A stretch of DNA of 64,000 nt, taken from assembly GCA_963969595.1 (NCBI GenBank), contig OZ018408.1, positions 13,265,823 through 13,329,822 of the forward strand, read 5' to 3'. Below are positions 2,009-54,490 of this stretch, piece by piece. A model generated the notes under the pieces. That model was not told the origin of the DNA. It made no database searches and saw nothing but the letters and a program-made list of their open reading frames with translations. How positions within the stretch are numbered: position 1 is the first letter of the stretch; the number at the start of each line of letters is the position of its first letter. The translations under genes were made by a program, and so were the position numbers. The DNA is from Neckera pumila. Taxonomy: Eukaryota; Streptophyta; Bryopsida; Hypnales; Neckeraceae.

Positions 2009-2012
2009 TTAA

Positions 2013-2936
2013 CCCCTAAAGGACCATTGTTCCTTCGAGGGACAAATGGAATTTTGGGCAGATACCTACGGGCTGAATTTTTGTTGTGATTTTCTGGAAT
2101 TTTTTTGGAGATAGAAAAACTGATAAGCTTTGTGGGAATATAATTTTTTTTCCAATCGGTGCCCAAGAATAAAAGTTATGCCCAAATAAGCTCAAAACAG
2201 GGGAGAGCGGGCAGCAAAAAAAATTTGCAAAAAATTAATTAATTTTTAAATTTTTTTTTTTCCTTATAGATTATATTTTTTTCTATTTGGGAAGCTTTGA
2301 TTCATTTCGTTTGGATTTTTTATGAGAAAGTTATGGACATTCTTGTTTTTTGGGCAATTAGAGCATCTTCTTGAAAAAAATAACTTGTAGGATTCATTTT
2401 GGAATGCAATTTTTGCAATTTAAAAAAAAAAAAATTCCACATGGTTTAGTTTTTGTGCTAGAGCAATCTCACCATTGGAATTTGTGAATTTTAAGTCCAT
2501 TAAAAAGATATTAGTATTTTAGATTTTCCTTCTATCTTGTACCTACTTCTACATAACAATTTTTTTAAGAATGAAAATTAATTTTTTTTTAATTTTTTTT
2601 TTTTCCCTAGACTCTCAACTCAATTCTCCACTAGAAAGATTTAAAGCTCAAAACTCTATTGGGCAAAAAATTTAAGTTAAAAATGTTCAAAGTCAAAAAA
2701 TCTAGTCCCGCAATGTGCTGAAAAACTTGTTTTTTTCACTTCAAACGCAGATATCTTGCAATCTGTGCGGTCAAAAATTCTGAAATTTTTTCCACACATT
2801 CTCATACTAGTTAGGTATATGATCCTACGGTTAGATGTGCAAAAAAAGAACAATTTTTAAATTTTTTTACACTTTGCTCTAGAAATGGCAGTTTTGAGAG
2901 TTTTGTGGCAGAAAAAAGGCCTTGGTCCTTTAGAGG
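2013..2936 (+). mobile_element. TTAA-flanked piggyBac-like non-autonomous element, copy 1 (long type)
   Basis: The element starts CCCCTAAAGGACC directly after TTAA (2009-2012) and ends GGTCCTTTAGAGG before TTAA (2937-2940), so termini are inverted and TTAA flanks both sides. It is 924 bp long. The interior is non-coding, with A/T runs and a conserved block near 2705-2840 (reading TCCCGCAATGTGCTGAAAAA at its start) shared with the copy at 7866-8798. Terminal CCC plus a TTAA target is the signature of piggyBac-superfamily elements. Confidence 0.8.
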
Positions 2937-2940
2937 TTAA

Positions 2941-3890
2941 CCTCATTGAAAATATCCAAAAGATTTGCATGTTTTGCATGTGATAATCCTATAAGAATAA
3001 ATTGAAAATCCTTGAAATTATTGTACCTAACAAACTTTTAAATCATGACTATCTTTGCCATGTGATATGGATAACTTCTAATTATTAATACTTTTAAGAC
3101 ACAATGACTTTTTTATTTTAGCAAATTCGTTGAATTGGGTTTTCAAAAGCTTTGGGTGATTTTATATTAGCTAAAAAAACATTCACCAAACAACAAAACA
3201 ACCTTCATTAGAGTTAAGCTAGCCATAGGTTACAAAATGCAGCCCTTTCCTTTAGGTTCCTCTTTCACTTATTATATATTACATTTGAATTTGATTCAAT
3301 GCCCTGTTAATACTAAATTGTTGATAGTAACGAAGTGTAATCAAATGCTGCCAAACGAAGAAGCATGAAGTGAAATAGTGACTCAACGGTAGGAGATGAA
3401 AGCAACCCCTACTTTCAAGCAAAGCACACCGTGTGATTACATAAAGGATATGCAGATAGTGCTCCTTCACAATTGTCCAGCTGCAGCATATTGACATTCA
3501 AATCAATGACACATATAAATTGGCCTGGTCAACGAACAAAGTTTCATTACAACCAAATCATAAACACAGAAGCCTAAGATTCCACAAAACGGTACCAGTA
3601 AAGATCAAGTCACTTTCATGACAAATTAGAAGCTTCCCATTGGAATATAGTTTGACCAAGCTCTGAATGCCAGAGTTCTTAGTCAAAAAAGAATAACAAA
3701 ATCAGCAAAAAAATATGTTGGTGGAGGCTTGAAAATTTCCTTCATTGAATTGCCCTTTGGGCACTATTAAATCTGCCAAACCAAACCGAACGTCCTTGGA
3801 GTAAATAAAAAAACATGGAAAAATTAAATGAAACAAGCTTATGAAAGGAGATCTTGAAAGACAAGTAAGTTAAGGAAGAGGGAGAAGACA
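2941..3890. other. AT-rich intergenic DNA, nothing recognised
   Basis: A short minus-strand open frame at 3279-3497 has no recognisable features. The stretch lies downstream of the minus-strand pseudogene candidate and may contain its lost 3' part. Confidence 0.4.
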
Positions 3891-3939
3891 CACCTCTCAT
3901 TGAAAGCCTTCTTCAAAGCTAGATAGGTCTCAACTACTT

Positions 3940-4709
3940 CTACTTCTTTTGGTTTAGAACTTGTAGATAATCTCCAAAAATCTTGATGTACATTTGTGCA
4001 AATTCTACGAGTGCATCCAAAGCCTTTAGGCTTCCAAAATGTACCTGATCATTTTGCTCCATGATGACTAAGTGACTAAAATCTTTGTAATCTGCGAGCG
4101 TTTTGTTGAAAACTTGCGTTCCAATCTGCCCAACACATCCATCCACAAAAAGCAAGGATGATTGTTAAGTAGAATTTTATAAGGCACAAGATCATAGTCT
4201 ATAAATAGAAGTGTAAGTCGGGATTTTGGAAGGACCTGAAATTCTTGTTGTTTAAATGTGGTGTACGTGTATCGCCCATCTCCATTTGACACAAGCTTAG
4301 CTCTAACAAACCATTTCAACACTTCATTAGCCACCTCACTAAGGTCTTGTTGACACCGTTCCATATTGAAATATATTAGTATCCTCATCTGTGATTTAAG
4401 CTCTTTGATACAACTTGTAAGATCTTCGGTATGACTTGCAAGATCTTCGATACAACTTGCAAGATCTTTGGTACGACTTGCAAGATCTTTGATATGACTT
4501 ACATGATCTTTAATAAAACTTGCATGCTCAACCTTCATGGCCTTCATCATCATCTTCAACTCAGTCGGATTGCTTTGCTTGCTATGTATTGCCATGCCTT
4601 GTTCATCTTGGTCCTTATTCTTGGTCTTTAGCATCTCCAAATTTGCCTCAAGCATGCATGGAGCCTGAATAACTAAGGGTAAGAGAGGGAAAGAGGGTCG
4701 AATCGGCAA
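3940..4709 (-). pseudogene. Broken gene or gene fragment with a coiled-coil repeat
   Basis: I do not recognise the family. The upstream frame (4709-4068) gives a polar N-terminal stretch with Lys/Gln/Glu, then about six 7-residue units of the form KDLASxx that look like a short coiled coil, then a globular-looking segment with WFVRAKLVSNGDGRYTY. Around 4130 the plausible reading passes to a second frame (4155-3940) containing DYKDFSHLVIMEQNDQVHF and ending QVLNQKK at a stop. The two frames overlap, which suits a single-base frameshift in a once-continuous protein. A third minus-strand frame (4848-4648) may carry more upstream coding sequence. The left edge of a CACTA element lies only about 25 bp upstream of it. 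Alternatives are an unspliced lineage-specific gene or chance open frames; the length of the first frame in AT-rich DNA favours former coding. Confidence 0.4.
4418..4525 (-). repeat. 21-bp tandem repeat encoding heptads
   Basis: About five to six imperfect copies of a 21-bp unit close to CAACTTGCAAGATCTTCGAT (plus strand). Because the period is divisible by three, it encodes the 7-residue repeats of the candidate coiled coil, so the coiled coil grew by minisatellite expansion. Confidence 0.75.
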
Positions 4710-4872
4710 AAACTAAGATGGACGAACCGCATCCAACCGGCAAGTCAATCTCCTCCTTAAACCTCTCAAATCGACTCTCCCTACTACCACCAATACTTTT
4801 GAGGAAATCATCCTTTAACCCTATTCCCTCTAATTCACAAAATGACACTAATTAATACAAAGTGTGTAGTTA

Positions 4873-6098
4873 CACTAGAAGGAAATGAGGGGTCTTGCAA
4901 CTACACTATGCAACTAGTTTTCAATTGCAAAGGACACTTGTGCCTACTTTGCGACTAGTGATAATGTGGAGACTTCTCGATAGACTTGTAGTTGCTATGG
5001 ACACCATCTCATGTGCAACTTGTTTGTTTTAGAATATTATTTTCATTGATCTATAGATTTCAAAATTTTAGAATTACCTTTTTTCTAGATTTTTGAATTT
5101 CAGATCTATCTTTCTTCTAAATATTTGAATTTCAGATCTACATTTCTTCTAGATATTTGAATTTCAGATCTACCTTTCTTCTAGATATTTGAATCTCATA
5201 TCTACCTTTCTTCTAGATTTTAGAATTTCAAATCTACTTTTTTCTAGATTTCAAAATTCTGAATCTATCTTATTCCTAGATTTCAAAAATTTAAATATTG
5301 GTATTTAATAGATTTCATTGATTAGGAAACTTTACAATTTATAGATTTTAAAAATTTCTTGGATTTGAAATCTTTTTTGAAATCTACAAATGATATAAAT
5401 TGAAAATCTGTAGAAACTTACAAATTATAGAAATCTTAGAATTAAATCAAAAAAAGTAATTGCATAAGATTACAACAACTTACAAGTCTTATATGTCCAA
5501 TTTAATGGTAGTCTTTACAATTGATATGGGACAATTGATACAAGACAAATGGGAATGAACTTTGGAAGCAACTAGGAAACAACTAGAAAATGACTAGAAA
5601 ACAACTAAGAAACAACTAGTATACAACTTAAAAGCAATTAAGAAACGACTAGTTTCACATTTAGAAAATTCAGGTTGTTTGTTGATTTGGTGGCAATCAT
5701 TTGGTTCACTTTTCTATCGATTTCTTCCAAATCAACAAATCAGTAGAAAAGTGAATCAAATCTATGCAACCAAATCAATAAGAAAGGCTAAATTTCTAGT
5801 AGTATAGAAAATGACTAAGAAACAACTAGTATACGACTAGAAAGCAATTAGAAAGCAACTAGTAAAGAACTTTGGTTATTTTACAGTTGCAATCTTTTTC
5901 TAGTTGTATTCTAGTCGTTTTTTGCAACTATAGATTGACTTCTTTGCAACTAAAACAATGTAGCAATGTTGTAAAACAATAGCATAAAACAATGAAGTTA
6001 GATTTGGTGTTAATAGAGAGGATTACAATCGCAAGACAATTGTATAGGACACTAGTTGCATAGTAGCCGGTTGTGATGGACACGCTTTTCTTCTAGTG
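4873..6098. mobile_element. Non-autonomous CACTA (En/Spm-type) element
   Basis: The left end reads CACTAGAAGGAAA and the right end reads TTTTCTTCTAGTG, giving inverted CACTA termini. A 3-bp target duplication TTA flanks both sides (4870-4872 and 6099-6101), as expected for the CACTA superfamily. Homology between the two ends extends inward for about 50 bp with mismatches (TATGCAACTAGT occurs in both). The interior has many scattered AACTAG motifs and a 32-bp tandem array, resembling the subterminal repeats that CACTA transposases bind. No transposase is encoded in these 1226 bp. Confidence 0.8.
5070..5260. repeat. 32-bp tandem array inside the CACTA element
   Basis: Five to six imperfect copies with a core of CTTCTAGATATTTGAATTTC and a period of 32 bp. 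The array lies near the left end of the element, where subterminal repeats are expected. Confidence 0.75.
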
Positions 6099-6101
6099 TT
6101 A

Positions 6102-7648
6102 GTATCTTTAGATGCCAAAAAACATCTCATTTGCCCGATTTGAAGAATTTTTGCAAAAGTTACAATGCTCTGAAGTTCGTAGCCGGTCAGCCCTAATCGG
6201 TCCGATTCTGTCCGTGAACAGAGATATTCCGTCTGATATGACAACCATGACTATTACTAGTATAAAAATGTGTGGTGAATATTTTAGACACTTTGTGTAT
6301 ATAGATTGCAAGAGAAATGTGTTCAAAGTGAAGAAATCACATTTTTTGGCACCTTGGCAGAGTAGTTTAGGAGACTTTGAATCTTTATAACTTACTAGCG
6401 ATTGGCGCTTGCTTTACTACACATTAAATATATTACTTTCATCAATTTTTCATGTGATAGAATGTAGATTAACAAAGTATGTATAATCTTTAAATGAAAA
6501 TATTGACATCCTCATACAATATTCTTTGAAAAAATTTATATAGTGCAGTATAAAGTAATTAAAGAAAATCTTTATATCATAATTTTTACAAAATTACCTT
6601 TGCAAAGATGAAAACATTGCAATAAGAATAAATTAATCAAGTGAACAATGTAAGTAGAATCTTGACATTTGAATATGTAGAGCAACGCTAGTGGTTGGTG
6701 CTTCCTTATTCTTTAATATCACATTTTAAAAAGACATGGAATTTATCTAATTATAGTTTTGTTGTCTGAAAGTTTCTTTGAAATTCTTTTAGAAGTATCC
6801 ATTTGATTTTCAAATATTTCACAAAAAGAATACATAATATATATAGTAGAAAGTATCCTATCGCTATTACAAGAGCAATTGAATTTTTATAATATTATTC
6901 AAAATTGAATTGTGATATTATAGAGGTCGTTGTGATTTTAGTAGTATGATAGCACAGAAGCAAAATCCTTCAAGAATTCCAATTCAGCGAATGTAGAAAG
7001 TCCAGTTTCCAGGTGCAAAAGAAAAATTCCCACGTTTTCACTTTTTGATGGAATAAGAGGAGTGTTTAGTTTATCATGCTCACGTCAACACCGGTTCTTG
7101 CATTCTTCACCACTGTAGCTTTGTATGAATTTGAAATGCAAGCTGAAACAACACTTTCAATCTCAAGATGGAGAAATGCATCTGTACAATTTGGATTTTA
7201 TGAAACACCTCAAGGCTACAATAAGTGACATAAGGTAGTAGGCTCTAAAAGCGACCCTTTAAGGGCTGATTTGCCTTTTTTATAGATTTGCATAATCAAG
7301 AAATATTTTTAACTCATTTTTCAGAGAAGAAAAAATAGATGTCAAACGTAACACAAGTGGTTTCATATTTTTTGAAGCATTTTTGAATTAGTTATGAATT
7401 TTTAAAGAATTCTATTGTAGTTACCTATTTGTGAACCTAGGTCTCCCAAAATCTGTCCCCTTGCAACTTCTAAAGTGATTTGAGGAAATCAAGGTCAATG
7501 AATGGCTCTTGCAATAAAAAAAACAATTTTTCCTTGATGCATTCAATAGCTAAAGTGGTCCATTCAAGGATCACCTCCAATCCATTCTACAACTAATTAT
7601 AGGGTCGGTTTAAAGGAACGGGTCGCTTTTACAGCACACTACCTTACA
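6102..7648. other. AT-rich intergenic DNA with a possible TTAA-element remnant
   Basis: Around 6305-6370 the sequence GATTGCAAGAGAAATGTGTT, followed by a run of AAGTGAAGAAA, resembles the subterminal block of the TTAA elements (compare 53730-53770). No intact end is visible. An open frame at 6112-6390 overlaps this remnant and is probably not a gene. Confidence 0.4.
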
Positions 7649-7853: not shown

Positions 7854-7865
7854 TTTATAACTTAA

Positions 7866-8798
7866 CCCCTAAAGGACCATTGTCCCTTCAAGGGACAAAT
7901 GCGTTTTCGGGCAGGTACCTACGGGCTGAAATTTTCTTTGGATTTTTTGAAACTTTTTTTGGAGGTAGAAAATCTGATAAGCTTCGTGGGAATATAATTT
8001 TTTTCACAATTGGTGCCCGGAAACAAAAGTTATGACCAAATAAGCTCAAAATAGGGGACGGTGGGCAACCCAAGCAACAAAAAAAAAATGGAAAAAATTT
8101 GAATTTTTTTTTTAATATTTTTTTTCTCATAGATTATATTTTTTCCTATTTGAAAAGCTTTGATTCATTTCATTTGGATTTGTTATGAGAAAGTTATGGA
8201 CATTCTTGTAATTTGGGCAATTAGAGCATCTTCTTAAAAAAATAAACTTCCAGGATGCAAATCTGAATGCAATTTTTCAAATTTTTCATTTTTTTTTTTT
8301 TTCCATGGTTTATATTACTTGTTAGAACAATCTCACCATTGGAATTAGTGCATTTTAATTCCATTCAAAATATATGAATATTTTAGATTTTCCTTCTATC
8401 CTGTATCTACTTCTATTTAACAATTTTTTAAAGAATGATAATTAAGTTTTTTTGAACTTTTTTTTTTTCCTAGACTCTCAACTCAATTCCCCACTACAAA
8501 CATTTAAAGCTCAAAACTCTGTAGTGCAAAAGTTTTAAGTTAAAAATGTTCAAAGTCAAAAAATCTAGTCCCGCAATGTGCTGAAAAACTTGTTTTTTTC
8601 ACTTTAAACGCAGATATCTTGCAATCTGTGCGGTCAAAAATTCTGAAATTTTTTCCACACACTCTTATACTAGTAAGGTGTAAGATCCTACGGTTAGATG
8701 TGGAAAAAAAAACATTTTTTAAAATTTTTAACTTTTTACTATAGAAATGGCAGTTTTAAGTGTTTTTTGGCAGGAAAAGGGCCTCGGTCCTTTAGGGG
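7866..8798 (+). mobile_element. TTAA-flanked piggyBac-like non-autonomous element, copy 2 (long type)
   Basis: Termini are CCCCTAAAGGACCATTGTCC and GGTCCTTTAGGGG with TTAA on both sides (7862-7865, 8799-8802). It is 933 bp long, co-linear with the copy at 2013-2936 and on the same strand. It sits in a Helitron-like repeat at a position where related units read ACCTTAAGTT, so its target was the TTAA within CTTAAG. Confidence 0.85.
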
Positions 8799-9064
8799 TT
8801 AAGTTAGGATGTTTGTTTTCTTTTGTTTTATCTGTTTGTTTTGTTTGTTTGTTACGTTGAGATCTCCTAGACCGTGCGTCTCTTGTTCATGTTTTTGGGA
8901 TTGTCGGAAAGTTTTCTACAAGGAGGGGTGCATGGGTATTTTTTGTGGCATTTGAACCTACGGTGTGAAAGTTATTGAGTTTCAAAGTTTTTATGATTTA
9001 AAAAAGTAAAAAAAACAATTATTTTTATTTTATTTTATTGCAGCAATGGCACAAGGTACACTAG
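8799..9064 (+). mobile_element. Helitron-like unit interrupted at its 5' end by a TTAA element
   Basis: It begins with TTAAGTTAGGATGTTTG, the internal part of the family's 5' end, and ends with GGTACACTAG. It carries the typical middle block (GAGATCTCC, GGAGGGGTGCA) and the AAAGTTATTGAGTTTCAAAG motif. Confidence 0.5.
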
Positions 9065-9104
9065 TCTTCTATACATTAAATTAGCTTATTTTTTTACCCT
9101 ATTT

Positions 9105-10258: not shown

Positions 10259-10259
10259 T

Positions 10260-14000: not shown

Positions 14001-14052
14001 TTTGACCTTTACTACAATCCTTTATGAAATCTTTATTGATTGTAAATATTAA

Positions 14053-14986
14053 CCCCTAAAGGTTTTTGAATATGTTTTCACCAAAATCGCTCCAAAACTG
14101 CCATTTCTAGTACAAGTACCAAATTTTAGAAAAAAAAACATTTTTGAACACATGTAATTGTAGGATCTCATAGTACACTGGTTTAAGAAGATGTGGAATT
14201 TTTTTTAGAATTTTTCACTATGTAGATTGCAAGATAATAGCGTTTGAATTGACAAAAATATTTTTTAATCACTGCAAAAATCCGGGTAGATGCCCTTGAC
14301 AAGGTCACATTTGTATGAAAAAATGTACAAAATGGTGGTTACTTTTTGGATTCATTCTTCAAGGCAAGTTGGCTACATGCTTGAAATTTTCAGATCATTG
14401 GAATTGTACAACATATAGGAAAAAAATAGTAAGTAGGAAGAGGTAGAGAATGATTCAAAATACTAAATTGTCAAGAATTTAACTATGGAATTGAAAAATG
14501 CCAATCCTAGCAGTTGTAATGTTGTAATAAACAATATACACCCCATGTTTTTTGTTTTATTCAAAAATATTGAAAATTGAGTTAGAAAAAGGACTTCAAA
14601 GTTTATTTTAGAGTAAAGATTCCATAACTACCCTCCAACTAAGAATCCTCATAACTTTTGACTCGTTAATCCAAATGGAATGATTCAAAGCTTTGCAAGT
14701 ATATATAAATCTATAAAATCAATTTCAAATTTTAATTTTTCAAAAGAGTGTTTTTTAAAGAATTTTTTTGAGCTGCCTGGGCTGCCCGCCAAATGCGGAA
14801 AATTACATATCATGCAATAACTTTTTACCCATAAAGTCAAAAGTTATGAAAACTATTGGGCCTTGAAGCTACTCCTTGGGTACATCTTGTGTGAACATTT
14901 CAAAGAAAAAAAATCAAAATTTCCATTTGTAATGAGCTGCCCAAAATTGCTATGTTGCCAAAAAATGGTGTTTGGTCCTTTAGGGG
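14053..14986 (-). mobile_element. TTAA-flanked piggyBac-like non-autonomous element, copy 3 (long type)
   Basis: Bounded by TTAA at 14049-14052 and 14987-14990, with ends CCCCTAAAGG and GGTCCTTTAGGGG. Its left interior (GCCATTTCTAGT, then GTAGATTGCAAGATA) corresponds to the reverse complement of the right end of copies 1 and 2, so it is inserted in the opposite direction. Length 934 bp. Confidence 0.8.
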
Positions 14987-15201
14987 TTAAAATACCTTAG
15001 TCACAGTTTTAGAATACTACTACTCGTATATCTACACTTCAAAGTTTTACAAGATATAGAAATGAATTCTTAATTAAGAATGGTAGGCCTCAATATGCCA
15101 CTATTGCTTTGATCACATATTTCATTTTCATTCGCCTACCTAACTTTTGAATTTTCAAATCATTGCACACCGTTTGCTATACCTCTCTTGGTGGATGGAT
15201 A

Positions 15202-22950: not shown

Positions 22951-22954
22951 TTAA

Positions 22955-25368
22955 CCCCTAAATGCCTAAGCGATCATATTTGGTCGCTTTGAAATTTAGG
23001 CTCGTTTTTTGTGTGGGCAGTTTAATTCCTTTGACCATTTAAAAAAAATTTACGAGCAATTTTGAAGGTTAACTATTGAAAACTTTAGTTTTTCACTAAA
23101 AAAAAGTTAATATTTGATTTTTGAGAGGTCCTCAAAGGCATATATGTTTGATTGTGAAAAGTAAAGCTTACTAATTTTACTTGCTTTCTAGGCTTTAAGC
23201 AAAGCTTGTCAATTTCACTTAAATTGAGATCTAAAAAGCTATACTTATTTGTTTGCTTTGAAAATGGTCCCTAGGGTGAATGCAAGAAACACTTGTACTA
23301 TTTGTTGCGTTTTCACAGTACTCATGTTTTTTTTCTAAAGTACTTTAAAACTAAAAAAATAATTTATAATTTAAAAAAAAAATATGGCCAATGTATATAC
23401 CTTTAAGATGAAAAAAACAGGGAAGGAAAAAGCATAGAAAAATTCTCTACGTGGGTGAACTAGAAAAATTCTCTACATGGGTGAACTAGAAAAATGCCAA
23501 ATCTCAAGAAAATAGACGCTTTGATGCTTTAATTAGTTAAAAATAGGAAAACAAATAAAACAAATAAAATAAAAATAGACCACTTGTAATAATTCTATGG
23601 AGATGGTCATTCACCAAAAGAACCATCAAAATAATATTTTATGTATTCTAAAATTTAAGAAGAAAGAAACTCTCTTTGTGGACTTTCGCACAATACAAAA
23701 TCAATTATTTTTAGAATCTCTTCCCTATATAGCTACAAATCTACTAGAAGACCACTCTCTCCAAATTTTTGGGTACAAAATAGTACTAAAAACCTCCAAT
23801 TTGGAATTTGTGACATGAAATTGGGGGTTGTTTTTATATGGTAAAACATTTTTGAAAATTGCAAAAAAAATTTAGGCAAAGTTTATAATAGACATGAGCA
23901 CCTTTTCTTTAAATCTTAAGTCATTTGGATCCAATACGCAAAAGTTATGCCTAAATTATCATGTTAGCATGCAGGGTGTGACGGAAAATAGTATAAGTGT
24001 TTTCTTGCATTCAACCCCCATGGAAAGAATAAAGTGTTTTCGTGATTTTCACCGTTGAAAATTTAGACATGCAAGTGTTAATTTGAGTTATTTGCGATTT
24101 CTACTTATAAAAAAAATTGCATTTCAACAATTGCAAAGTGGATTGTGTAATGAGTTTGATAGCTTTTCATGTAAATTTAAGTTTTTTGAAAGTGTATTTT
24201 AGTGTGCTAACATGATTTGTAGTTGTTCATGTCACCTCCAATCCCAAAAAACTGTCTCAAACATTGTGGGGAGAGGCAGCATATTAACCCCTAAAGTCCC
24301 ATTGTCCCTACGGGGGACAAAATGGATTTTGGGCAGGTTCCTATGAGCTCAATTTTTAATGAAACTTTCTGAAACTTTCCCATAAGATAGAAAAACTTAT
24401 TAGCTTTTGGGGAATGTAATTTTTATTTCAATCGGTGCCCGGGAGCAAAAGTTATGCCCAAATAAGCTCAAAACAGGGGAGAAGGGGCAGCAAAAAAATT
24501 TTGCAAAAAATTTAATTTAATTTTAAAATTTTTTTTTCCTTATAGATTATATTTTTGCCTATTTGGGAAGCTTTGATTCATTTCATTTGGACTTTTTATG
24601 AGAAAGTTATGGACAATCTTGTTTTTCGGGCAATGAGAGCATCTTCTTGAAAAAAACTTTTTCTTTCACTTTGAATGCTGATATCTTTCAATCCGTACGG
24701 TCAAACATCACAAAATTTTTACTACATGATCTGTAAAAAGTGTAGTATAAGATCCTACGATTATTTTCTAAAAAAAAATAATTTTTCTCATCTTTTAGAT
24801 GAACGCAACAAAAGTAGCAGTTTTGAGTGATTTTTGATAGAAAAATGGCCTTGGGACTTTAGGGGTTAAAAATAGAAAATATACATTTCTCTTGTTATAA
24901 TTTTACAGCTTCTATGCAATTTCACACTCAAAAGTGGTATGCATACTAATAAACAAGCTCTTTAAGCATCTATACAATTAGATTTTGGAAAAAAAAACGA
25001 TTTGCTTCATTGGGGATAATTGTAAGTTCATGTTCTTTTTTTTATAGGAAAATCACACTTGGAAAGGCTTAGGCGTTTAGGGGTTAACTTCTTAATGTCA
25101 ATCTCTTGTAAGGGGCTTGGGTTACTAGTTGAAATTTCAATATTTTGACAATGGCAAAATATTCTACTTCTTAATATTGATTGTTGAAAACAATGTAAGG
25201 CTACAAAATAATGTCATATTTGCTTCAAAGCAAAATGTGACTTAACCTAAAACTGAAAAAATCTTTTGAAGAAAAAAAAAAAAAAAATTGAAAAAGTTTT
25301 TTTTTGCCCAAAAATTTGGCTCAAAGTTGGGTAGCAACCAAAAAATGATCGCTTGAGCGCTTAGGGGC
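22955..25368 (+). mobile_element. TTAA-type element, long variant with nested insertion
   Basis: The left end after TTAA (22951-22954) reads CCCCTAAATGCCTAAGCGAT. Two right ends are possible. One is GGCTTAGGCGTTTAGGGG before TTAA at 25084-25087. The other is GATCGCTTGAGCGCTTAGGGG before CTAA at 25369-25372, whose inverted match to the left end extends further (through the GATCATTTTTTGG region) with mismatches. Two related elements may be nested or fused. A shorter TTAA element is inserted at 24288-24865. Confidence 0.55.
24288..24865 (+). mobile_element. TTAA-flanked piggyBac-like element, copy 4 (internally deleted)
   Basis: The ends are CCCCTAAAGTCCCATTGTCC and GGGACTTTAGGGG with TTAA on both sides (24284-24287, 24866-24869). 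Its left half aligns with copies 1 and 2. About 350 bp of their middle is missing, leaving 578 bp. It lies inside the larger TTAA-type element, so this family was active after that one inserted. Confidence 0.8.
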
Positions 25369-25372
25369 TAAA

Positions 25373-26578: not shown

Positions 26579-26582
26579 TTAA

Positions 26583-26804
26583 CCCTTAAAGGACGAAGGG
26601 GTGACCCTGGAAATCATCCTGTTCATTACCGTGTGACATCATCTACATTAAAAAATTCAAAAGTATCTATTGGAAGTCAAGCTACTATAGAAGATTTTTC
26701 CTTTTCACAATAAACTTTGAGGATGAATAGTTGCACTTTTGTCCTGTAGAGTTTAATTCTATGTCATCCATCAGCCATTCTATGGCCTCCTTGACGTTTA
26801 GGGG
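26583..26804 (+). mobile_element. TTAA-flanked short element (222 bp)
   Basis: Ends CCCTTAAAGGACGAAGGGG and CTTGACGTTTAGGGG inside TTAA (26579-26582, 26805-26808). The interior shares GGAAATCATCC, TGACATCATCTAC and GATGAATAGTTGCACTTTTG with the element at 34338-34568 and, less well, with 42361-42592. This defines a separate short subfamily with the same ends and target. Confidence 0.8.
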
Positions 26805-26839
26805 TTAAGTACACATTGACAGAAACCCAATACTGATAA

Positions 26840-28114: not shown

Positions 28115-28200
28115 AAAGGAAACCAAAATTTCGTTAAAATGGTGGTATTCCACAAACTTAACTTGACACTTTTATGTTTAGACCGTGCGGTCTGAAATCC
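28115..28200 (+). mobile_element. Fragment of a MITE family (see 40471-40659 and 42220-42350)
   Basis: Contains TTCGTTAAAATGGTGGTATT, CCACAAACTTAACTTG and GACCGTGCGGTCTGAAAT, matching the internal sequence of 42220-42300. It abuts the 5' edge of the Hint pseudogene remnant. Confidence 0.5.
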
Positions 28201-28201
28201 T

Positions 28202-29896
28202 ATGCGCCGGCAGATGCACGAATCTGATAACCGCTCTACTGAACTGCGGGAGCTGCTCGAATGTTTGCCCATCTTCATGTTCGGCAGACGCCGCTGCAAC
28301 TTGCGCTACGTCGAGGGAGAATGCGGATGCTTCCCAGGTTCGAAAGTCTCGCAGTTAAATAAACTCATGTGCTTAATTCAATAATTAGCTACTAGTTAAG
28401 TTCTGCGTAGCGACAGGACTAACAGATTCTGTACGAGCAGTTCGTTGAATGTGTAAGATTTTCAAGCTAGGTCGGGACTTTGCAAATGCTTTTGATTCAT
28501 TGATTGTAAATGTTTGCGTTTGGACGGCATGCATGTGATGCCAGACTCACGCTGGCTAGCTATAACTCGGGCGCAGTGAAGCAGATGATCGACCGGATTT
28601 GGTTGACATTGTGACAAGGTCAGTACTGCATGATCACAAATTTCACAACGTGTATATACTAGATCTAACTAACTTACGAGATGCCGATCTGCCAAATCCC
28701 GTCGAATAATTAATAATATAATTATGTAGTTACTCCCCAGTCCCCACGTTAGAACTTTAGATTGGATATCCCGGTCCAAGCCTCTGTCTCTCTGAATAAT
28801 GTAACTTGTTGAATTACTGGTATCCGTTTAATTTCCCACTGGTGCGTTGCCCTGCTAGCCTGTGCCTTATGAAAGATGCCTTATGAATGAGCGATCAGTT
28901 GTGGTTGTGCTCAACCGGGATCACAACACACAAGGTGCCCAGGAATTGAATTCATTGCCCCTAGATCTGGAATCGCAATGTCGTTTTACCCTTACTGATT
29001 AATACTACTTTCTCGATCAACAAGCATGCATGTCGCTGCCAGGAGGCGTGATGGAAGCCTGACTTACGAGGACGTCTGTGTCTTCGGCAGCGATGCTTCA
29101 GCTTTTTCAAGCTTTATACAACTCACCACGATGCCATTGATGTCTACATGTATGATTCTGCCATCAACAGTGGGACACTCGAGCTCACAGCGTTGCATTT
29201 TCGTTCCAATCTTGTCAGGTTTACCAAACTTTCAAACCCTACCACCCCCACTTCTCACAAGAGACATCCATTCAATAGTCTGCCCATGTCGTAAACCCTA
29301 ATGCAGGGTACAAACAGTTGTGGTTATCACCATCCCCACCTATTTTGCAAATTTGATCGTAATTGAAAGGGGTACGTAAACTTGTAACGTAAAATTGACA
29401 TTGTGATGGTAACGTACACTTTCTTTGAGTGTCTTTCAAGCTGCAAAGAAAAAACTGAAAGAATTTATGAATTTACTTGAACGTGTCAATGTGAGAACTC
29501 AATTGTCACCAGCTTTATCTTGTCACAATTGATTTAAACAATCGCAATTAATGAGCAAGTACGAATTCACCCCATGTTCTGAATAAAACAAAATAAGCTT
29601 AACATGGGATCGACGATGGGCTTTACAGGCGTTGGCAGAAACGTACATGCAAGCTCAAGACGTTGTGAAGAGTGACAAAGTTTGGGTGGAGGAACGTGGC
29701 TCAACGTTCACGGTCACCACCATTGCGCAAGTGGAGAAGCAAGGACTGTACAATCCCTTCACACTGGGTGGCACCATCATTGTCAACGGCGTACAGCGAA
29801 TGGGCTCTGGACAGCGTCTTCCAGAGGTTAGGGTTGGTGGAGGGCTTGCCGGCCACGTACCAGACGGTGCTCTTGCTGGTGCGGATGCTGTACTAA
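28202..29896 (+). pseudogene. Decayed hedgehog-type Hint (Hog) domain gene with introns
   Basis: Four segments in order resemble a Hint domain, the self-splicing module of hedgehog and Hog proteins. Segment 1 (28202-28339) ends GECGCFPG; Hint domains start at such a Cys. Segment 2 (28537-28618) has DARLTLASYNSGAVKQM, like the usual D-A-x-V-x-L-x-S-G start. Segment 3 (29026-29218) has SLTYEDVCVFG and, in another frame, LELTALHF, like the Hint L-T-x-x-H core. Segment 4 (29629-29896), after a CTTTACAG acceptor, has DKVWVEERG, YNPFTLGGTIIVNGV and then, in another frame, SEWALDSVFQ and LPATYQTVLL up to a stop, the Hog C-terminal arrangement. Reading frames change inside segment 2 (about 28585), segment 3 (T-run 29103-29107) and segment 4 (about 29791). 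Retained intron-like gaps argue against a processed copy. Sequencing error could explain one shift but hardly three. The N-terminal partner domain is not identified. Confidence 0.65.
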
Positions 29897-29984
29897 TTAA
29901 GGCCTGGGGAAGCATGTGTACTGTACATCAAACTCTATGGTTGGGTGGATACTATAACGGGTTTCTCCGAATTTGCAGGTTCGC

Positions 29985-30067
29985 AGGAGGGAGGAGCCGA
30001 GAAGGTTAAGGCTTTAAGGTTCAGGTTTAAGGTTTATGGTTTTTTAAGGGTTCTTAGGGTTTAAGGT
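29985..30067. repeat. Degenerate AGGTTTA/TTTAGGG-like tract
   Basis: The tract has irregular copies of AAGGTTTA, AAGGGTT and TTAGGGTTTAAGG just after the Hint pseudogene. It resembles a decayed plant-type telomeric (TTTAGGG) or simple repeat, but no two perfect adjacent units occur. Confidence 0.35.
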
Positions 30068-34110: not shown

Positions 34111-34337
34111 ATAGGAAAAATTGTCTCTTCTATCTTTTCTTCAGTATTTTGGTAATTTCCTAAATACTTCTGAACAACCATTGCTTTTTTTTGGAAAATA
34201 GAGCTATGTGTAGCCTTCCCAATAGTGGAGAATATTTCAAGGGAGTCAGGTGCATTGGCTGAAATCCTCTCATAAGATTTACAATTTGGCTACAAAGAGC
34301 AAAGAAAAAAGAAATTGTTCCCAACTCTTTATTTTAA

Positions 34338-34568
34338 CCCTTGAACGTCGGGCTAGTGACCGTGGAAATCATCCCTTTTGGCATTGTATGACATCATCTA
34401 CTTTGAAGAAAACAAAAGTGTTCAATGGAGGTCAAACAGAGGTCAAACTAGTGTAGAAGTCCTCCCCTTCTCACAACAAAATTCCAAAGATGAATAGTTG
34501 CACTTTTGTCCTACACGAGATTCCGTATCATTCATTGGCCGCAAAACGTTTGCTTTAATGTCTAAGGG
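34338..34568 (+). mobile_element. TTAA-flanked short element (231 bp)
   Basis: Ends CCCTTGAACGTCGGGC and TTTAATGTCTAAGGG inside TTAA (34334-34337, 34569-34572). The interior matches the 26583-26804 element (GTGGAAATCATCCC, GATGAATAGTTGCACTTTTG). It is the same short subfamily. Confidence 0.75.
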
Positions 34569-34572
34569 TTAA

Positions 34573-41404: not shown

Positions 41405-41408
41405 TTAA

Positions 41409-42042
41409 CCCCTAAATGCCAAAGGCACCAAAATCTGGTGTTTGCAAAACTTTGAAGTTAAATAAAACTTAACCAAGTTGCTATTTCTAGTAGTTCATAT
41501 TTTTAGAAAGTTCTTCTTGAAGTCTAATTTTAGCACCAAAAATCCGATCTTGAAAATAACTGATAGTGATTTTTCTATTCAAGTTTTTGTACAAGGGCAC
41601 CCATTGCAATCTTGACTTCCCGTAAAGTTGAGAGCTCTTGGAAATGAGCCTCAAATACACTAGATCTTGGAGAAAAAATCACATTCAAAATTCATTTAAA
41701 AAATTTGTAGAGTAGATTTTAAGAAGCCATAAATTGATCAGGGTTATACAAGTTAGGCCCTTTAACCTCATATTTTTTTGGTCACCAACTTTTTAGATTT
41801 AATTTGTATAAAGAAGATTGAAAGATTTTTGCAATTTTAGCACCCTCATGATCAAACATTATAATCTTTCACTCCATAAGTGATGTTGTGTTTTCTTTTC
41901 CTATGAGATCTCTAACATGTCTAGTTTGAATTTGTATGGTTACAATTCAAAAAAATTTAATACAACTTATCAAAATGTTGACATTTTGTTCAATTTAGAG
42001 CAAATTCCAGGAAGCCCAAAACAGGCCTTGGGCATTTAGGGG
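41409..42042. mobile_element. TTAA-flanked element, 634 bp variant
   Basis: The ends CCCCTAAATGCCAAAGGC and GCCTTGGGCATTTAGGGG are inverted inside TTAA (41405-41408, 42043-42046). The interior differs from the long and short subfamilies, which suggests a third subfamily using the same termini. Confidence 0.75.
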
Positions 42043-42219
42043 TTAAGTTATTACCCAATACGATCAAACTGGAACTGGGCGCTTATGAAAGGAACTCGAA
42101 GGGCCCAAGCTTTCGATTTTGGCAGCTGGTTGGAGGATCGCGGAGCTTTCACCTCGAAGGATTCGCCAAAGGTCACAAACAATATTGTCGTACTCAGTAT
42201 ACAACCGATACCGTATTTT

Positions 42220-42350: not shown

Positions 42351-42360
42351 TACAAGAATA

Positions 42361-42592
42361 TAAACCTTGGAACGTTGGGTTGGTCACTTTGGAAATCATC
42401 CTTTTCGGTGCCACGCAAATCATTTGCTTAAAAAAACCTAAGAGCACTTATTGGAGGTCAAATTATTGTGCAAGACCTCCCCTTTTCACACAAAATTCCA
42501 AGGATGAACATTTGTACTTAGATTTTCTTATATAGAAGGATTCTTTGTCATCCATGAAACACTTAGTGTCCGCAACAACGTTGCAAGGTTAA
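42361..42592 (+). mobile_element. Degenerate short TTAA-type element
   Basis: The left end ACCTTGGAACGTTGGGTTGG and the right end CAACAACGTTGCAAGGTTAA are inverted. The interior matches 34338-34568 (GGAAATCATCC, GAGGTCAAA, CCTCCCCTTTTCACA). The left TTAA has decayed to ATAA. Confidence 0.55.
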
Positions 42593-43376: not shown

Positions 43377-43377
43377 G

Positions 43378-44835
43378 GTTAATAATCAACTGTGTGAGCA
43401 TACAAGGTGATTAACTCCTAAAGGTCAAAGACTATGTTTTCACCAAAACCGCTCCGAAACTACCATTTTTTGTGACAAGTATCAAATTTGAAAAAAAACA
43501 TTTTTTAGAAAAATGTAACCATAGGATCTTATAGTACACTAGTTCAAGATGTTGTTGAAAAAATTCCAGAAAATTTCCGCCTTATGGACTGCAAGATATA
43601 TGAAAAAATGTCCATAATGGTGGTTACTCTGTGGATTCTTTCTTCAAGGCAAGTTGGCTACATGCTTGAAAATTTTCAGATCATTTGGAATTGTAAAATA
43701 TAAAAGAAAAAAATAGTAAATAGAAAGAGGTAGAGAATGATTCAAAACACTAATTGTTGAGAATTTAGATATGGAATTGAAAAATGCCAAACCCAACGGT
43801 TGTAATATTGTAATAAACAATCTATAGCCAATGTTTTTTTTATTTTTTTTCAAAATTAATGGAAACCGAATTAAATAAAGGACTTCAAAGTTTTTTTTAG
43901 AATAGAGATTCCATAACTACCCTCAAACTAAGAATCCTCATAACTTTTGACTCATCAATTGAAATGGAATGATTCAAAGCTTCCCATACATATAAAAATC
44001 TAAAGAACCAATTTCAAATTTTTATTTTAAAAAAAAGTGATTTTTGAAGAAGTTTTTTGAGTTGCCGAGCTGCCCACCAATCAATGAAAATGACATATCA
44101 TGCAATAACTTTTAAACCATGCAGTCAAAATTTATGAAAATTGTTGGGCCTTAAAGCTACTCTTCGGGCACATCTTGTGTGAAAATTTCAAAGAAAAAAA
44201 TTAAAATTTCCGTTTGTAGTGAGCTGCCCAAAATTGCTATATTTTCAAAAAATGGTATTTGGTCTTTTAGGGCCAGTTAATTGGCAAATTAATCAAATTC
44301 AATGAAATTAAGCAAAATGAAGTGGATTTTAATTATTAGAGCTTTGAGTGGGGATTTGAGTCTGTAATTGGGTAGACTTCCATGATCTGAGCCATGACCT
44401 GAGCCATGATCTGAGTTTAGTCACATTTCAGGCCAGTGCAAGATTGATTGAGGTATGCATTTCTAAACCCAAGGATTCCAACAATGAATAAGACCAAGAG
44501 ATGTTACTTTACTCTCACTTTAATGAAATTATTTAAACTCATATTCATATTAAATAAAATTGCCCTCTAAGAAATAATACATCCGTTAGTCATAGAAAAA
44601 TTCTCAGCCCTCCGAAGGGCCACCCAAACTAGTTTACTAGTCGCTTGAGAATTAGTAGGGGCATATAGTTGCAATGCATTGTCAGAGTGTGTGAATTTTG
44701 CAAAAGACATCAAGACTCTAATAATGAGAATATAGTAGAAGTCTGTTTAATAATCAGTTGTGTAAGCATACAAGGTGATTAATTGGCAATTAATCAAATT
44801 CAATGAATTTAAGCAAAATTGAAGTGAATTTCAAG
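43378..44835. repeat. Duplicated locus: occupied and empty TTAA insertion site
   Basis: Bases 43378-43414 (AATCAACTGTGTGAGCATAC, then AAGGTGATTAA) and 44277-44330 (TTAATTGGCAAATTAATC and on) flank a TTAA element. At 44746-44835 the same two flanks are joined without it, as AAGGTGATTAATTGGC. The second site has one TTAA and the first has two. Confidence 0.85.
43415..44276 (-). mobile_element. TTAA-flanked piggyBac-like element with paralogous empty site
   Basis: The element starts CTCCTAAAGGTC and ends TTTTAGGGCCAG between TTAA at 43411-43414 and 44277-44280. It is 862 bp and co-linear with 14053-14986 (shared GGTGGTTACT, CAAGTTGGCTACATGCTTGA, GAGCTGCCCAAAATTGCTAT). The unoccupied relative of its target at 44779-44782 has a single TTAA. 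Confidence 0.9.
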
Positions 44836-47360: not shown

Positions 47361-47637
47361 TAACAAAGCCTATTCCCGTCACTTTAGAAATTTGCCTTGC
47401 TTATATTATCAAGTGTCATCACCATTTAAGGTACCTTAGCCTATGACAGGCTAAGTTTAGGCCAGCCTAATACAAGATAGGAATTTTTTTGTAAAGTATA
47501 TTTCACAAGTTATATGTATAATTGAGAAAGTTATGGGCATGCATTAGGCTTGCCGTAGGTTGAGTTACCTTAGTTTGTGTTGATTAGCTTTTGGAGGAAA
47601 AACTCGCTAGAAATAAATTTACTTTAATCCTTAAATT

Positions 47638-48527
47638 GTCATTGTCTTCTCCGAGAACAAAAAGGATTTTGAGCGCACCTATGGTCTCAATTTGTATTGT
47701 GATTTTTTGATATTCTTTTTGAAGACAGGAAAATACATTAGCTTTTGGGGAATACAATTTTTAATTCAATTGGTGCCTAGAGAAAAAGCTATGTCACCCT
47801 GTCTAAAATGGAGTTTGTCTAGCAACACAAAAAAATCATAGAAAGTCAAAATATAAAAGTCAAAATGTAATTTTCAAAATTTTGTTTCTCGTAGAGAATA
47901 TTTTTGTCTACATAGAAAGATTCGGTTCATCTATTTAGAAAAATGATGAGAAAGTTATAGAAAGTCTTATTTTTCAAAAAATCTAAACATTTTTTTGACA
48001 GAATAGCTTGTAGCATTCATTCTTTAATCCAATTTTCACAAATTTAATATAAAGCTTAATATAATTTAATTATCATATTAGAATGATCTCAATATTAGAA
48101 TTAGTGATTTCAATTCTATCTTAAAACTATGAACAATTTAATTTTTCCTTTAATCTTGTACCTACTTCTACTTAATTTTTTTTTAAAGAGTAAAAATTAA
48201 GTGTGTGTTTTATTAATTTTTTAATCTAGACTTTTAACTCAATTCTTTAAAAGTCAAAAGTCAAAATGTGTAGTGCAAAAAGTTTTCAGCTAAAAGGATT
48301 TGAATCTTTAAAATCTAGTCAAACAGGTGCAACAAAAAAAAATTCTTTACTTCAAACACAAATATCTTGCAATCCACGCGTTCAAAGTTTTTGAAATTTC
48401 TTCCACACATTCTTATACTAATGTATTACAAGTTCCTATACTTAAAAATTCTAAATTTTTTGCACTTTTCAATTGACAATTTTAATGGATTTTGATTTTT
48501 AAAAATGCTTTAGAGTATAGGGGCTCA
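47638..48527 (+). mobile_element. Decayed TTAA-type element (long type)
   Basis: Starts CCTTAAATTGTCATTGTCTTC after TTAA (47634-47637) and ends TTTAGAGTATAGGGG before CTCAA. It is co-linear with copies 1 and 2 (TTTTGGGGAATA, CAATTGGTGCC, ATATCTTGCAATCCACGCG) but much more diverged, so this family has old and young members. Confidence 0.65.
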
Positions 48528-50400: not shown

Positions 50401-52390
50401 GAACTTGTTCCTCACAATCTAACTTCCAACCAAATTGCAAGTCTCTTAGTGCACCACATTGGTTTCCTATTTATACTAGAACAACTGATAATGATGTATG
50501 TAACAGCTAGGCTTGAAAAAATATTTATTTTTTGGAAAGTTCTTCAAAGCACATGCAAGTACTTTGGCCCCATTACTAATTCAATGAAGTAGAGTAATGT
50601 TCCTTTCACATTTTATTTCTTTGGTGCAAATCCAATCTCATTCTTGTGGTTAAAAATTAGAAGCATACACACTTTGTCAAATTGTATTGTAGGCATGATT
50701 GTATAGTTATTGACTTAGTGCCAACCATTGTGCATAGTTTATTGAAAAATGGGTGGTTTCTAAATACTCCTCTAAAACCTATATTATTTTAGAAATATTA
50801 GATGCATGTTATATTATTACAGATGTAAAAATCTATGAGTGTTTTAATTAACAATGGGCAATTTTTTAGTAATTCCAATATCATTAGATAAATTTTGATA
50901 CATTGAGTAAATGATTGGCAAGATTATTGGATCATTTACAATTGACCAAATTTCTTTGACAAAGCAAGCTGGGAACTTTGATCGTATGTCAATGAGGTCT
51001 ACTATGTTAGTCACATGTAGACAAATTGCAACTAATATCAAATGTAGTTCAAAAATGACATTTTAAATATGCAAACCTTATAATTAAAGAGGTCAAAATT
51101 TAATGAGTAGATTCCTCAAACCTACTATCTAATTTCAACGCGATCCTTTTGTTGAATATTGTGCATGAGCATCCACTCATTATCTAAATTTGCTAGGATA
51201 TACTTTTGAGAATGATCTTAATAATAGGCTGTGTCAATCGTCTTGAAGTTCATATTAGATAATTAATCAAGTTATTTAAAGTGATTTTTTTTGTCTAAAT
51301 AATTTGTCAATCATCGCAATCAGTGCTTGAGTCTTTTATAAATAAAATCTCTTATGACCATTCTGATGAAATTGAGATTAATTATGTCTATGTATAAAAA
51401 GACATAAGTAATCATCTATAAAAACTCAAAGAAAAATGGATTACTACAGAGGCTGCCTATAGCATTGAATAACCATACAATGGTCCTTCCCATGTTGGGA
51501 GGGTATTGTACTTTGCTATATACATGATATGTACTTATCAAAATTAGATTGCATAGGTTGAGGAGGCATAACTAGAGGACAACTTTGTTCACTATAAGAG
51601 TCCCCTTTTTAAACATGCAAAAGGGCCCCAAGTCTTATTTCATTGGTAAACAATGTTATGGAATTATAGGAGTGCTAGACTATATGACCCGACCAAGATG
51701 AATCTGATCCTTGGGAAAAACAATGGAATTTTATTACTACGTACTTGCCACCCATGATAAAAATTTGGAAATTCATAATTAGAATCAGAGACTCCAAATT
51801 AGGTACACAAAATAATGAAATTAGGTTGCCTTACCTCAGATGAATTATCTCATGACTCAATACTTTGTCCACATGGAGGCATATGCAACTCTCTGAACTG
51901 GGCCTTGAACTAGTGCACTAATCCATGCCATACTCATGGCTATAGATTGAATGCATTATTATACAGTAGCAATGAATATTTATATAATATGGACTATCAA
52001 GAAATTAGTGTGGGGCAACCAAATTTCACAATTTTGTGTAGGAGAGGTGAAGAATACAAAATTAATGCGGCTCAAAATATAGGACAATTTTTCTTACGTT
52101 TACCCTTGGCCGGTGGCTACCGTATGGGCAGGGCAGTTTTAGCAGGACAATGCCGAAATAATTTAGTTTTTAAATTTGGCACTTTCGGCAAGGAGATAGG
52201 AATTTTTTTGTTTTCGGCACATTGTGAGGATGCTCCTAATTCTGGATTGATCCTAAAAATTATTTCAGATTTTCAGAAATTGTTGTAAATAATTTTTAAA
52301 ATTTCAACATCTTCCAAATTTTCCTGAGTTATTTACAAAACTGACCTACACATATTGTACTGGCTAGGGGAACAAGAAGAGTAAATCCGG
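50401..52390. other. AT-rich intergenic DNA with weak open frames
   Basis: The 113-aa frame 51947-52288 (with GGYRMGRAVLAGQCRNN) is not recognised. The 51740-51810 piece is a dispersed repeat shared with 15920-16005. Confidence 0.35.
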
Positions 52391-52615
52391 TAAATCGTGC
52401 CATCCTTTGTGGGCCCAGCAGGATAAATCTGGGTTTCTCGAGGGTAAAAATAAATAAAGCCCCCTATATTTGAGCCGTGTCTAGGGATACTTACTAGCCC
52501 CCCTAGCTAATTTGGGGCCTCTGATTTCAAATATGAATTGTGGCAAATTAAAAATTCCAGCGTTTTCCCCGGGGTAAATTCGGCCCGCAGGGCCCACCAA
52601 GGATGGCACGATTTA
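52391..52615. mobile_element. 225-bp MITE with about 29-bp inverted ends
   Basis: TAAATCGTGCCATCCTTTGT then GGGCCC at the left matches, inverted, GGGCCCACCAAGGATGGCAC then GATTTA at the right, over about 29 bp with two mismatches. The interior holds the inverted form of the 15920-16005 repeat (AATTTGGGGCCTCTGATT). Confidence 0.75.
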
Positions 52616-53554
52616 ACTTCCTGCAATCCTTTCTGGCCATAGGACCGGGAACAAGTCAATATTGTAGCTTCACTCAGTTCACTGTTTCAGGACAATGACG
52701 ACAAACGAGAATTCTCGGCTTCAGTTCGCTTCAGTTGTCCCATATTAAAAAAAAAATATTAAAACGATCTTTTCTGCATGTCTACATCTGTTAGAGAGCT
52801 TCGCTGGACCAATTGCTCAGTTTTCCCTGTTTTGGGGCTTTGAGAAAAATTCTACTAACTTCAGAAATACGTACAACATTTGTTGCTGAGTTGCTCCTTT
52901 TTTTGTTTTTTTATTTTTATTTTTTAACAAATGGAGCAAGCCATTGCATTGGTTGCTCCATTTTCTCTGGAGAATAAACTGGAAAAGAACCACTAAGCTT
53001 AAGAATAGCAGAATCAGTTCAGTTTCAGTCAAGAATGGAATGTTTAAAAAATTGAAAACAAATGAAGTAACTAACGTGGAAACTCCGCTGGAAAGGACGT
53101 CGATCGTTCGCCTCCCTGCCGGCCTGTAGGATTGCGGGATCATTCTGACAAATACCGCCCTATCCGAAATTAACACTAAATTCTGACCAAAATAAACCCT
53201 CCTCTCTTAAACCCTTTTCATACCTTAAACCTTTTTCTGAATCCATTTTGCATTGGTTTTTTCTTAGCTCATATTTTATAGTTTTTTTTATAGTTTTTTT
53301 TATAGTTTTTTTTTATTTACTTATTTTTGAACAAATGGAAGAACCATTGCATTAATAAATAAATAAAACTACAAGACAGCCAAGCCAAAGGGTGGACAAT
53401 GAAGAAAAGTGAGCATAGATTGAAAGAGAATCAAAAGTGAGCTACATAAACGAGCGAGAAGGGGAAGGAGACTTGTTCTAGATTACCCATCCTACGAGCA
53501 ATAATTAGAGAGTTGGAAGCCAAATGCTATCAAAATTTGCCAAATAGAGTCAGC
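52616..53554. other. Intergenic DNA, simple repeats
   Basis: A minus-strand frame at 52817-53176 (119 aa, Lys/Phe-rich) overlaps AT runs and is not recognised. At 53275-53318 there are three to four copies of TATAGTTTTTTT, a 12-bp simple repeat. Confidence 0.4.
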
Positions 53555-53558
53555 TTAA

Positions 53559-54486
53559 CCCCTAAAGGACCGAGGTGACTTTCCTATCAAAAACCACTCA
53601 AAATTGTCATTTCTATTGCAAAGAGAAAAGAGCTTTAAAAATTGTTTTTTCTTGCATATCCAACCGTAAGATCTTATACTTGACTAGTCTATGAATATGT
53701 GGAAGAAATTTCAGAAATTTTGACCATGTAGATTGCAAGATATATGCATTTAAAGTGAAGAAAATAATTTTTTTGCACCTAGCTTGACTAGATTTTTTGG
53801 CTTCGAGTCTTTTTAGTTCAAATTTTTTGCACTATGGACTTTGATTTTCTACTTATTTATGTTAAGTAGTTAAGTTGAGAATCACCCAAAAAAATTTAGG
53901 ATAAAAAGCACTTAATTTTCACTCATTAAAAAATTGTTAAGTAAAGGTAGGTTCAAGATTGAAGAAAAAACTAAATTGTTAATAGCTTTTAGATGGAATT
54001 GAATCACAATAATCCCAACGGTGATATTGTTCTAGAAATAAAATCCAACATTTTCTAACAATTTTTTTTGACAAAATTCTAAAATTTGCATTGAAAAACG
54101 AATTCTACAAGTTATTTTTTCGAGAAGATGCTTAGATTGCTCGAAAAACTAAGATTGTCTATAACTTTCTCATTATTAGTCCACATTTGAATGAAACAAA
54201 GCTTCAAATGTAGACAAAAATATAATCTTTGAGAAAAAAAATTGAAAAAAAAAATTATTTTGACTTTTTGTGATTTTTTTTGGGCTGCCCGCCGAACTCC
54301 AATTTTGCTTATTGTGCCATAACTTTTGCTCCCAGGCATCAATTAAAATAAAAATAATATTTTCACAAAGCTCTCACAAAAACACACAACCGCAAAAAAT
54401 CCCAAAAAATATCACTAAAAATTGAAGCAGTAGGAACCTGCCCGGACCCGAATTGTCCCCCGAGGGGACAAACGGTCCTTTAGGGG
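53559..54486 (-). mobile_element. TTAA-flanked piggyBac-like non-autonomous element, copy 6 (long type)
   Basis: The ends CCCCTAAAGGACCGAGG and AACGGTCCTTTAGGGG are inverted inside TTAA (53555-53558, 54487-54490). Length 928 bp. In reverse complement it matches copies 1 and 2, including the GGTGCC, TTGTCCC and GGGCAGG blocks. Confidence 0.85.
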
Positions 54487-54490
54487 TTAA

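Follow-up and report, generated by a model that had tools for sequence, protein, structure and literature searches.

Introduction

The best solved relatives of the transposases reported here are piggyBac of T. ni (PDB 6x67, 6x68), which has a TTAA target, a DDD catalytic domain and a cysteine-rich C-terminus, and piggyBat of Myotis lucifugus (PDB 9c0f). We analysed a stretch of 64,000 nucleotides from the moss Neckera pumila (contig OZ018408.1; hereafter the window), in which an initial annotation had described ten short elements with inverted ends inside TTAA as a piggyBac-like family. Our results make it nearly certain that the window elements are non-autonomous members of the piggyBac superfamily, similar to miniature inverted-repeat transposable elements (MITEs), that lack a transposase of their own and most likely owe their movement in trans to the transposases of larger piggyBac elements located elsewhere in the genome.

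The moss elements resemble T. ni piggyBac in target, catalytic domain and the tip TTAACCC and, judged by eye, may share its cysteine-rich C-terminus. They differ from it in having a plant host, in the size of the transposase-bearing elements (5.0-7.3 kb) and of their frames (875-987 amino acids (aa) versus 594 aa), in an N-terminal stretch common to two transposase groups, and in the tens of thousands of short tips that accompany them. piggyBat, the closest solved relative of the group with a 987-aa frame, differs in its mammalian host and its 578-residue chain, and its ends are unlike those of the moss elements. The plant MITEs Tourist and Stowaway are, like the moss elements, short, present in many copies, sorted into sharp length classes and presumably moved in trans; however, an excerpt of a MITE review gives their targets as TAA/TTA and TA (PMC10004981), whereas the moss elements have TTAA targets and piggyBac partners.

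The superfamily itself is known. As far as the excerpts at hand extend, it occurs in most eukaryotic lineages (PMC9499001), does not figure among five superfamilies given for plants in one account (PMC2528002), is listed among angiosperm MITE superfamilies (PMC10004981), and is named from plants, without detail and with citation of a 2017 survey, in a 2021 paper (PMC8086355). A table for C-fern gives 1,230 PiggyBac items totalling 122 kb, and a further excerpt has the insect element used in rice and untested in P. patens (PMC5505980). Because plant carriers have already been named, we do not claim piggyBac as new to plants, and the initial annotation's view that such elements are unexpected in land plants is right in part: the surprise is that a land plant harbours so dense a system, with signs of recent mobility. 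No published account of endogenous piggyBac elements in moss turned up in a search that lay mostly outside the subscription literature, and the combination of a moss host, high density and transposase-bearing elements is the one that we did not find in print.

Results

Element ends and TTAA are conserved genome-wide

We counted element tips across the whole genome, a check that the initial annotation had named, and used the same sequence read backward as the control. The tip TTAACCCCTAAAG was found at 28,152 sites (control 15) and CCCCTAAAGGNCC at 16,864 (control 14), with TTAA directly preceding 14,617 of the latter (86.7%); correspondingly, TTAACCCCTAAAGGNCC occurs 14,617 times (control 0). 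Lower counts were obtained for TTAACCCCTAAAGTCCC (2,855; control 0), for the subfamily B tips TTAACCCCTAAAGTTTCATGACTATG (1,218; control 0), for TTAACCCTTGAACGTCG (213; control 1) and for TTAACCCCTTGRGGACT (14; control 0). Ends and TTAA are thus conserved throughout the genome. At two TTAACCCCTAAAG tips per element of about 0.93 kb, and counting exact tips alone, these elements would amount to about 13 Mb, or 4% of 339.5 Mb. The genome-wide count predicts about 5.3 exact TTAACCCCTAAAG tips per 64 kb, whereas the window, denser than this mean, holds 9, and TTAACCCCTAAA occurs 16 times on its two strands as compared with 0 in each of 100 dinucleotide shuffles.

Among the first 100 of the 2,855 GTCCC tips, 24 plus-strand tips had a facing tip within 7 kb. 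The spans of these pairs were 584-590 bp in 14 cases, 917-938 bp in six and longer in four. Sequence comparison shows the 586-bp class to be related to the 930-bp subfamily A, from which it differs by an internal deletion. Its copies (14 fetched and the one in the window) show a median identity of 93.8% (range 73.6-98.8%), the window copy being 98.8% identical to the closest of those fetched, and seven of 19 complete elements, drawn from 30 loci at 0.29-1.02 Mb of contig C1, have a nearest neighbour at 95.6-97.4%. Such near-identical copies suggest recent movement. Subfamily A and the 586-bp class share with MITEs a high copy number, sharp length classes, the absence of a transposase frame and the ends of a partner. 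At about 930 bp, subfamily A exceeds the usual length of a MITE.

The four longer GTCCC pairs (3.7-5.4 kb) were considered as autonomous elements and set aside; the sole one fetched (L067) proved to be two separate short elements. We also rejected a preference for insertion into the tips of other copies, at which L042, L043, L041 and window positions 26579-26582 had hinted, since CTTTAGGGGTTAACCCCTAAAG is rarer than expected (52 sites, that is 104 of the 28,152 tips, below the approximately 1% expected from the window's TTAA density of 465 in 64 kb) and since a third copy of a 5.37-kb element (L066) does not lie at a tip.

Larger elements with these ends carry piggyBac transposase genes

A search with the profile PF13843 (DDE_Tnp_1_7) scored at least 116 places of 873 candidates, with a best match at E 4.6e-80; in 35 of the 116 the match contains no stop, and none of the 116 listed lies inside the window. 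No such place was found in 14 control genomes, although those named are all prokaryotes and the comparison is little informative. Following the initial annotation's proposal to collect long frames and score them with this profile, we found that elements with the ends seen in the window do encode DDE_Tnp_1_7 proteins. For the GTCCC and GGACC families, the domain and its conserved aspartates occur in elements with the same ends.

The GTCCC element (L039; 5,634 bp) has TTAACCCCTAAAGTCCC at both ends; its frame of 875 aa begins with GTG, and L040, another copy of the element, shows 98.8% identity to it. A 7.3-kb GGACC element is present on contigs C2 and C6 (L070/L071; 7,313 and 7,332 bp, 98.9% identity); the similarity between its copies is bounded exactly by TTAACCCCTAAAGGACC, the tips of subfamily A, their flanks differ, and their frames are open between stops over 900 and 880 residues. 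The transposase frames of these two copies contain unequal numbers of short internal repeats (GGMGDVRVE and similar). A 5.37-kb group comprises three copies, 98.8-98.9% alike, and further groups are represented by L041, L045, L046, L048 and L044/L047. In all, eight transposase groups were distinguished among the fetched copies, seven of them 34-72% identical in the domain to the group of L001. Several have inner tips of their own, namely GTCCC (L039), GGACC (L070/L071), CCCCTTGRGGACT (L042), CCCTG (L041) and CCCCAAAACGTCC (L046).

The window elements share more than their tips with these larger elements. The subfamily A element at 2009-2940 matches the 7.3-kb element over its first 99 bp (77%) and its last 210 bp (71%), and the 586-bp element at 24284-24869 matches the 5,634-bp element over its first 53 bp (96%) and its last 212 bp (75%). 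Along 516 bp, the right part of 22951-25372 is 78% identical to L048, where a transposase reading frame is present, and by this similarity the L048 group is its likely partner; the second end of L048 was not found.

Two other candidate partners were dropped. L044/L047 had been considered for the GGACC tips and was replaced by L070/L071, because the 96.7% similarity between L044 and L047 starts near the transposase domain and extends past the right tip, so that they are not clean elements. To the right of their transposase tip lie tandem units of about 350 bp that have spread together with the transposase copies. L041 had been considered for the window elements of 230-240 bp, and its matches sit in short elements flanking a 5.0-kb element, not inside it. 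In L041 (positions 1295-6767), this transposase-bearing element has a short element of about 230 bp on each side sharing its TTAAs, an arrangement that may be due to chance or be composite.

The transposases retain catalytic residues and show constraint

T. ni piggyBac is the best solved relative of the 875-aa frame (E 2.7e-35), and piggyBat that of the 987-aa frame (E 2.4e-30). In an alignment of 14 host rows, some of them partial, the aspartates of TIDE, MDNFF and GVDVADQ are invariant or nearly so, and the aspartate of TIDE aligns with residue 268 of T. ni piggyBac; we take D268, D346, D447 and D450 to be the aspartates with catalytic roles in that enzyme. Rows that reach the C-terminus show, by eye, a cysteine/histidine pattern, and no separate Pfam match to a cysteine-rich C-terminal domain was obtained for the two proteins scanned. 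The N-terminal stretch common to two groups, AWDxLPVRRSCRLL, lies outside the Pfam match, and in L001 a first exon and an 85-base GT-AG intron are predicted upstream of it. Between L001 and L044, the proportion of nonsynonymous differences (pN) was 0.167 and that of synonymous differences (pS) 0.739, the latter near saturation, which shows constraint over the long term.

Searched with its domain, the 875-aa frame retrieved 69 proteins, of which the four with an organism name are two from Actinostola and one each from Petrolisthes and Paratrimastix; the closest, at up to 65%, lie on JGI, lgn and ENA contigs. A profile search gave, in the best 120 of 256 matches, up to 76% identity to L047. Proteins of Ceratodon, Physcomitrium, Sphagnum and Riccia are absent from the matches listed though the database holds proteins of these plants, and this is weak evidence, given the frequent masking of repeats ahead of annotation and the dependence of the search on shared words. 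In a FastTree phylogeny of 74 proteins (five host groups and the 69 retrieved), the host groups fall within a 34-member clade (support 0.98), interleaved with 29 others, and the Actinostola, Petrolisthes and Paratrimastix proteins fall outside it. No relative was confirmed when viral contigs were scanned once.

Two elements inserted at a single TTAA, and some ends carry a palindrome

When the nested element 24284-24869 is removed together with one TTAA, its host is colinear with L048 (79%). Likewise, once the L039 element is taken out with one TTAA, the subfamily C copy that it had interrupted aligns colinearly (76%) with window positions 14049-14990. Duplication of the TTAA target on insertion, as in piggyBac, is seen in the window ends, at the genome-wide sites and against two uninterrupted relatives.

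We scored 66 ends of 33 elements for palindromes, accepting those within bases 18-40 of the end that had a score of at least 7 with p <= 0.05 over 60 shuffles per end. Within the window, element bases 19-37 of 7862-8802 form a palindrome, TTGTCCCTT-C-AAGGGACAA, that is present on one side only (score 9; 0 of 60 shuffles as good), and 53555-54490 carries TTGTCCCC-TCG-GGGGACAA close to its 54490 end (0 of 60 as good). Eight of the ten palindromes accepted (TTGTCCC...GGGACAA) share one related sequence and are thus not independent; the 5.37-kb element has a different palindrome in the same place, and the remaining one belongs to a single subfamily B copy. Weaker palindromes in L046 and 22951 stay below the threshold, and a score of 7 was also reached at other places by two or three palindromes, T-rich or otherwise, a few being expected by chance as 66 ends were tested. 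In some families the palindrome occupies bases 15-33 after TTAA, near the position of the cysteine-rich-domain site that an excerpt places at bp 17-33 of T. ni piggyBac (PMC7351741), and it may be a binding site of the transposase.

Elements of the window and their surroundings

All ten elements were read directly and are real (Table 1). The nine outer ones cover 8,154 of the 64,000 bases (12.7%), in agreement with the roughly 8 kb first estimated, and over the first 20 bases the ends of seven of the ten pair at 14-19 positions.

Table 1. Elements of the window. Coordinates include the flanking TTAA, which those of the initial annotation exclude.
Position	Strand	Element	Ends and similarity
2009..2940	+	non-autonomous, subfamily A, 932 bp	TTAA both ends; 85% to 7862-8802
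7862..8802	+	non-autonomous, subfamily A, 941 bp	17 identical end bases incl. TTAA
14049..14990	+	non-autonomous, subfamily C, 942 bp	TTAA both ends
22951..25372	+	older element hosting a nested one	sole element without TTAA at both ends; right tip decayed (TTTAG), or end = inner TTAA tip 25087
24284..24869	+	non-autonomous, 586-bp class, nested in 22951-25372	
26579..26808	+	non-autonomous, 230 bp	70% to 34334-34572
34334..34572	+	non-autonomous, 239 bp, tip TTAACCCTTGAACGTCG	ends pair 12/20 bases
41405..42046	+	non-autonomous, 642 bp, tip TTAACCCCTAAATGCC	16 identical end bases incl. TTAA; 19/20 match
43411..44280	+	non-autonomous, subfamily C, decayed right tip	86% over 677 bp to 14049-14990; ends pair 7/20
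53555..54490	-	non-autonomous, subfamily A, 936 bp	18 identical end bases incl. TTAA

The element at 53555-54490 is 73% identical to 7862-8802 over its full length and 92% identical to a copy at C1:295069, and the left TTAA of 26579-26808 is common to an oppositely oriented tip (26582). Decayed relatives that the initial annotation did not list lie at about 47624-48440, 6254-6394 and 42382-42555. Tandem repeats of an approximately 32-bp unit occupy 5032-5286, and a fragment at 29632-30006 resembles the hedgehog/intein Hint module (E 1.4e-6; 28.5 bits, slightly below the family cut-off of 29.7).

A multi-exon gene for a GRAS (SCARECROW-like) transcription factor spans 57648-61310, the frame 60870-61310 being the gene end (Pfam E 2.2e-36). 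Its exon-joined protein has its best named match in Ceratodon purpureus (71% over the full length), and the other named matches are further Ceratodon proteins and proteins of Physcomitrium, Sphagnum, Riccia and seed plants. Genes present on contig C18 include rbcL (E 5.2e-134) and matK (E 4.4e-100). Together with the GRAS gene, these identify the land-plant host assumed at the outset as a moss.

Discussion

The combined results place the window elements in the piggyBac superfamily, and the other explanations fare poorly against them. MITEs with TAA/TTA or TA targets are frequent in plants according to an excerpted review (PMC10004981), so the short elements might belong to another superfamily, such as PIF/Harbinger or Tc1/mariner, with a target that reads TTAA by chance. 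We consider this highly improbable, because a full TTAA precedes 86.7% of the CCCCTAAAGGNCC sites and because the enzymes encoded by transposase-bearing elements that share the ends of the short ones are of the piggyBac type; the encoded enzyme refutes it for the GGACC and GTCCC families, and it stays formally applicable to families for which no partner was found. Animal contamination of the plant assembly, which would fit the two animals and one protist among the named enzyme relatives, is hardly credible at all: the tips occur on all large contigs listed and, in the window, beside a moss GRAS gene, moss genes are not missing from these contigs, copies are nested in one another, and the 34-member clade of the enzymes leaves out the named animals. 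Somewhat less remote, and still unlikely, is that a single transposase mobilises all subfamilies, as the initial annotation had proposed from ends shared without shared interiors. The tip TTAACCC is indeed common to the families, and CTAAAG to many; yet the eight transposase groups, at 34-72% domain identity to L001 and several with their own inner tips, speak against it, as does the 5.37-kb group, whose CCCCTTGRGGACT tip has just 14 exact sites.

Several observations weigh against assigning the window elements to piggyBac transposases acting in trans. No transposase partner was found among the fetched copies for the 14049/43411, 26579/34334 and 41405 types, nor for the subfamily B tips with their 1,218 sites. 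The ends of 43411-44280 (7/20), 22951-25372 (11/20) and 34334-34572 (12/20) pair weakly, both uninterrupted relatives now read CTAA, not TTAA, at the insertion site, and the one-sided palindrome reached our threshold in 10 of the 33 elements and no more. Recent copies within a group differ by very few changes, with ratios of nonsynonymous to synonymous change (dN/dS) of 0.3-0.9 that indicate weak constraint, and L008 carries a stop within the transposase domain. Finally, transposition is here deduced from sequence and none was observed.

If the window elements move as piggyBac members, the transposase would bind the CCCCTAAAG-type tip together with the sequence just inside it, possibly at the one-sided palindrome. 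The element would then be cut out cleanly at TTAA and rejoined into another TTAA, leaving TTAA copied on both sides. Several transposase groups coexist in the genome, only some of which have given rise to large families of short copies. A broader proposal, which we put forward tentatively and hold to be slightly less than even in its chances, is that mosses have their own old and diversified piggyBac branch, mobile into recent times, and that several autonomous groups coexisting in one genome gave rise to its short TTAA elements, tens of thousands in number. If true, this would mean that a land plant has a piggyBac system of its own, one that may even work today.

The near-identical transposase-bearing copies and at least 28,152 tips show that the piggyBac superfamily can grow to a sizeable share of a land-plant genome, and they suggest re-examining the repeats of other bryophytes unmasked. 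TTAA targeting can be studied in the moss as a natural plant system, and its elements can serve as insertion markers and as a source of piggyBac tools adapted to plants.

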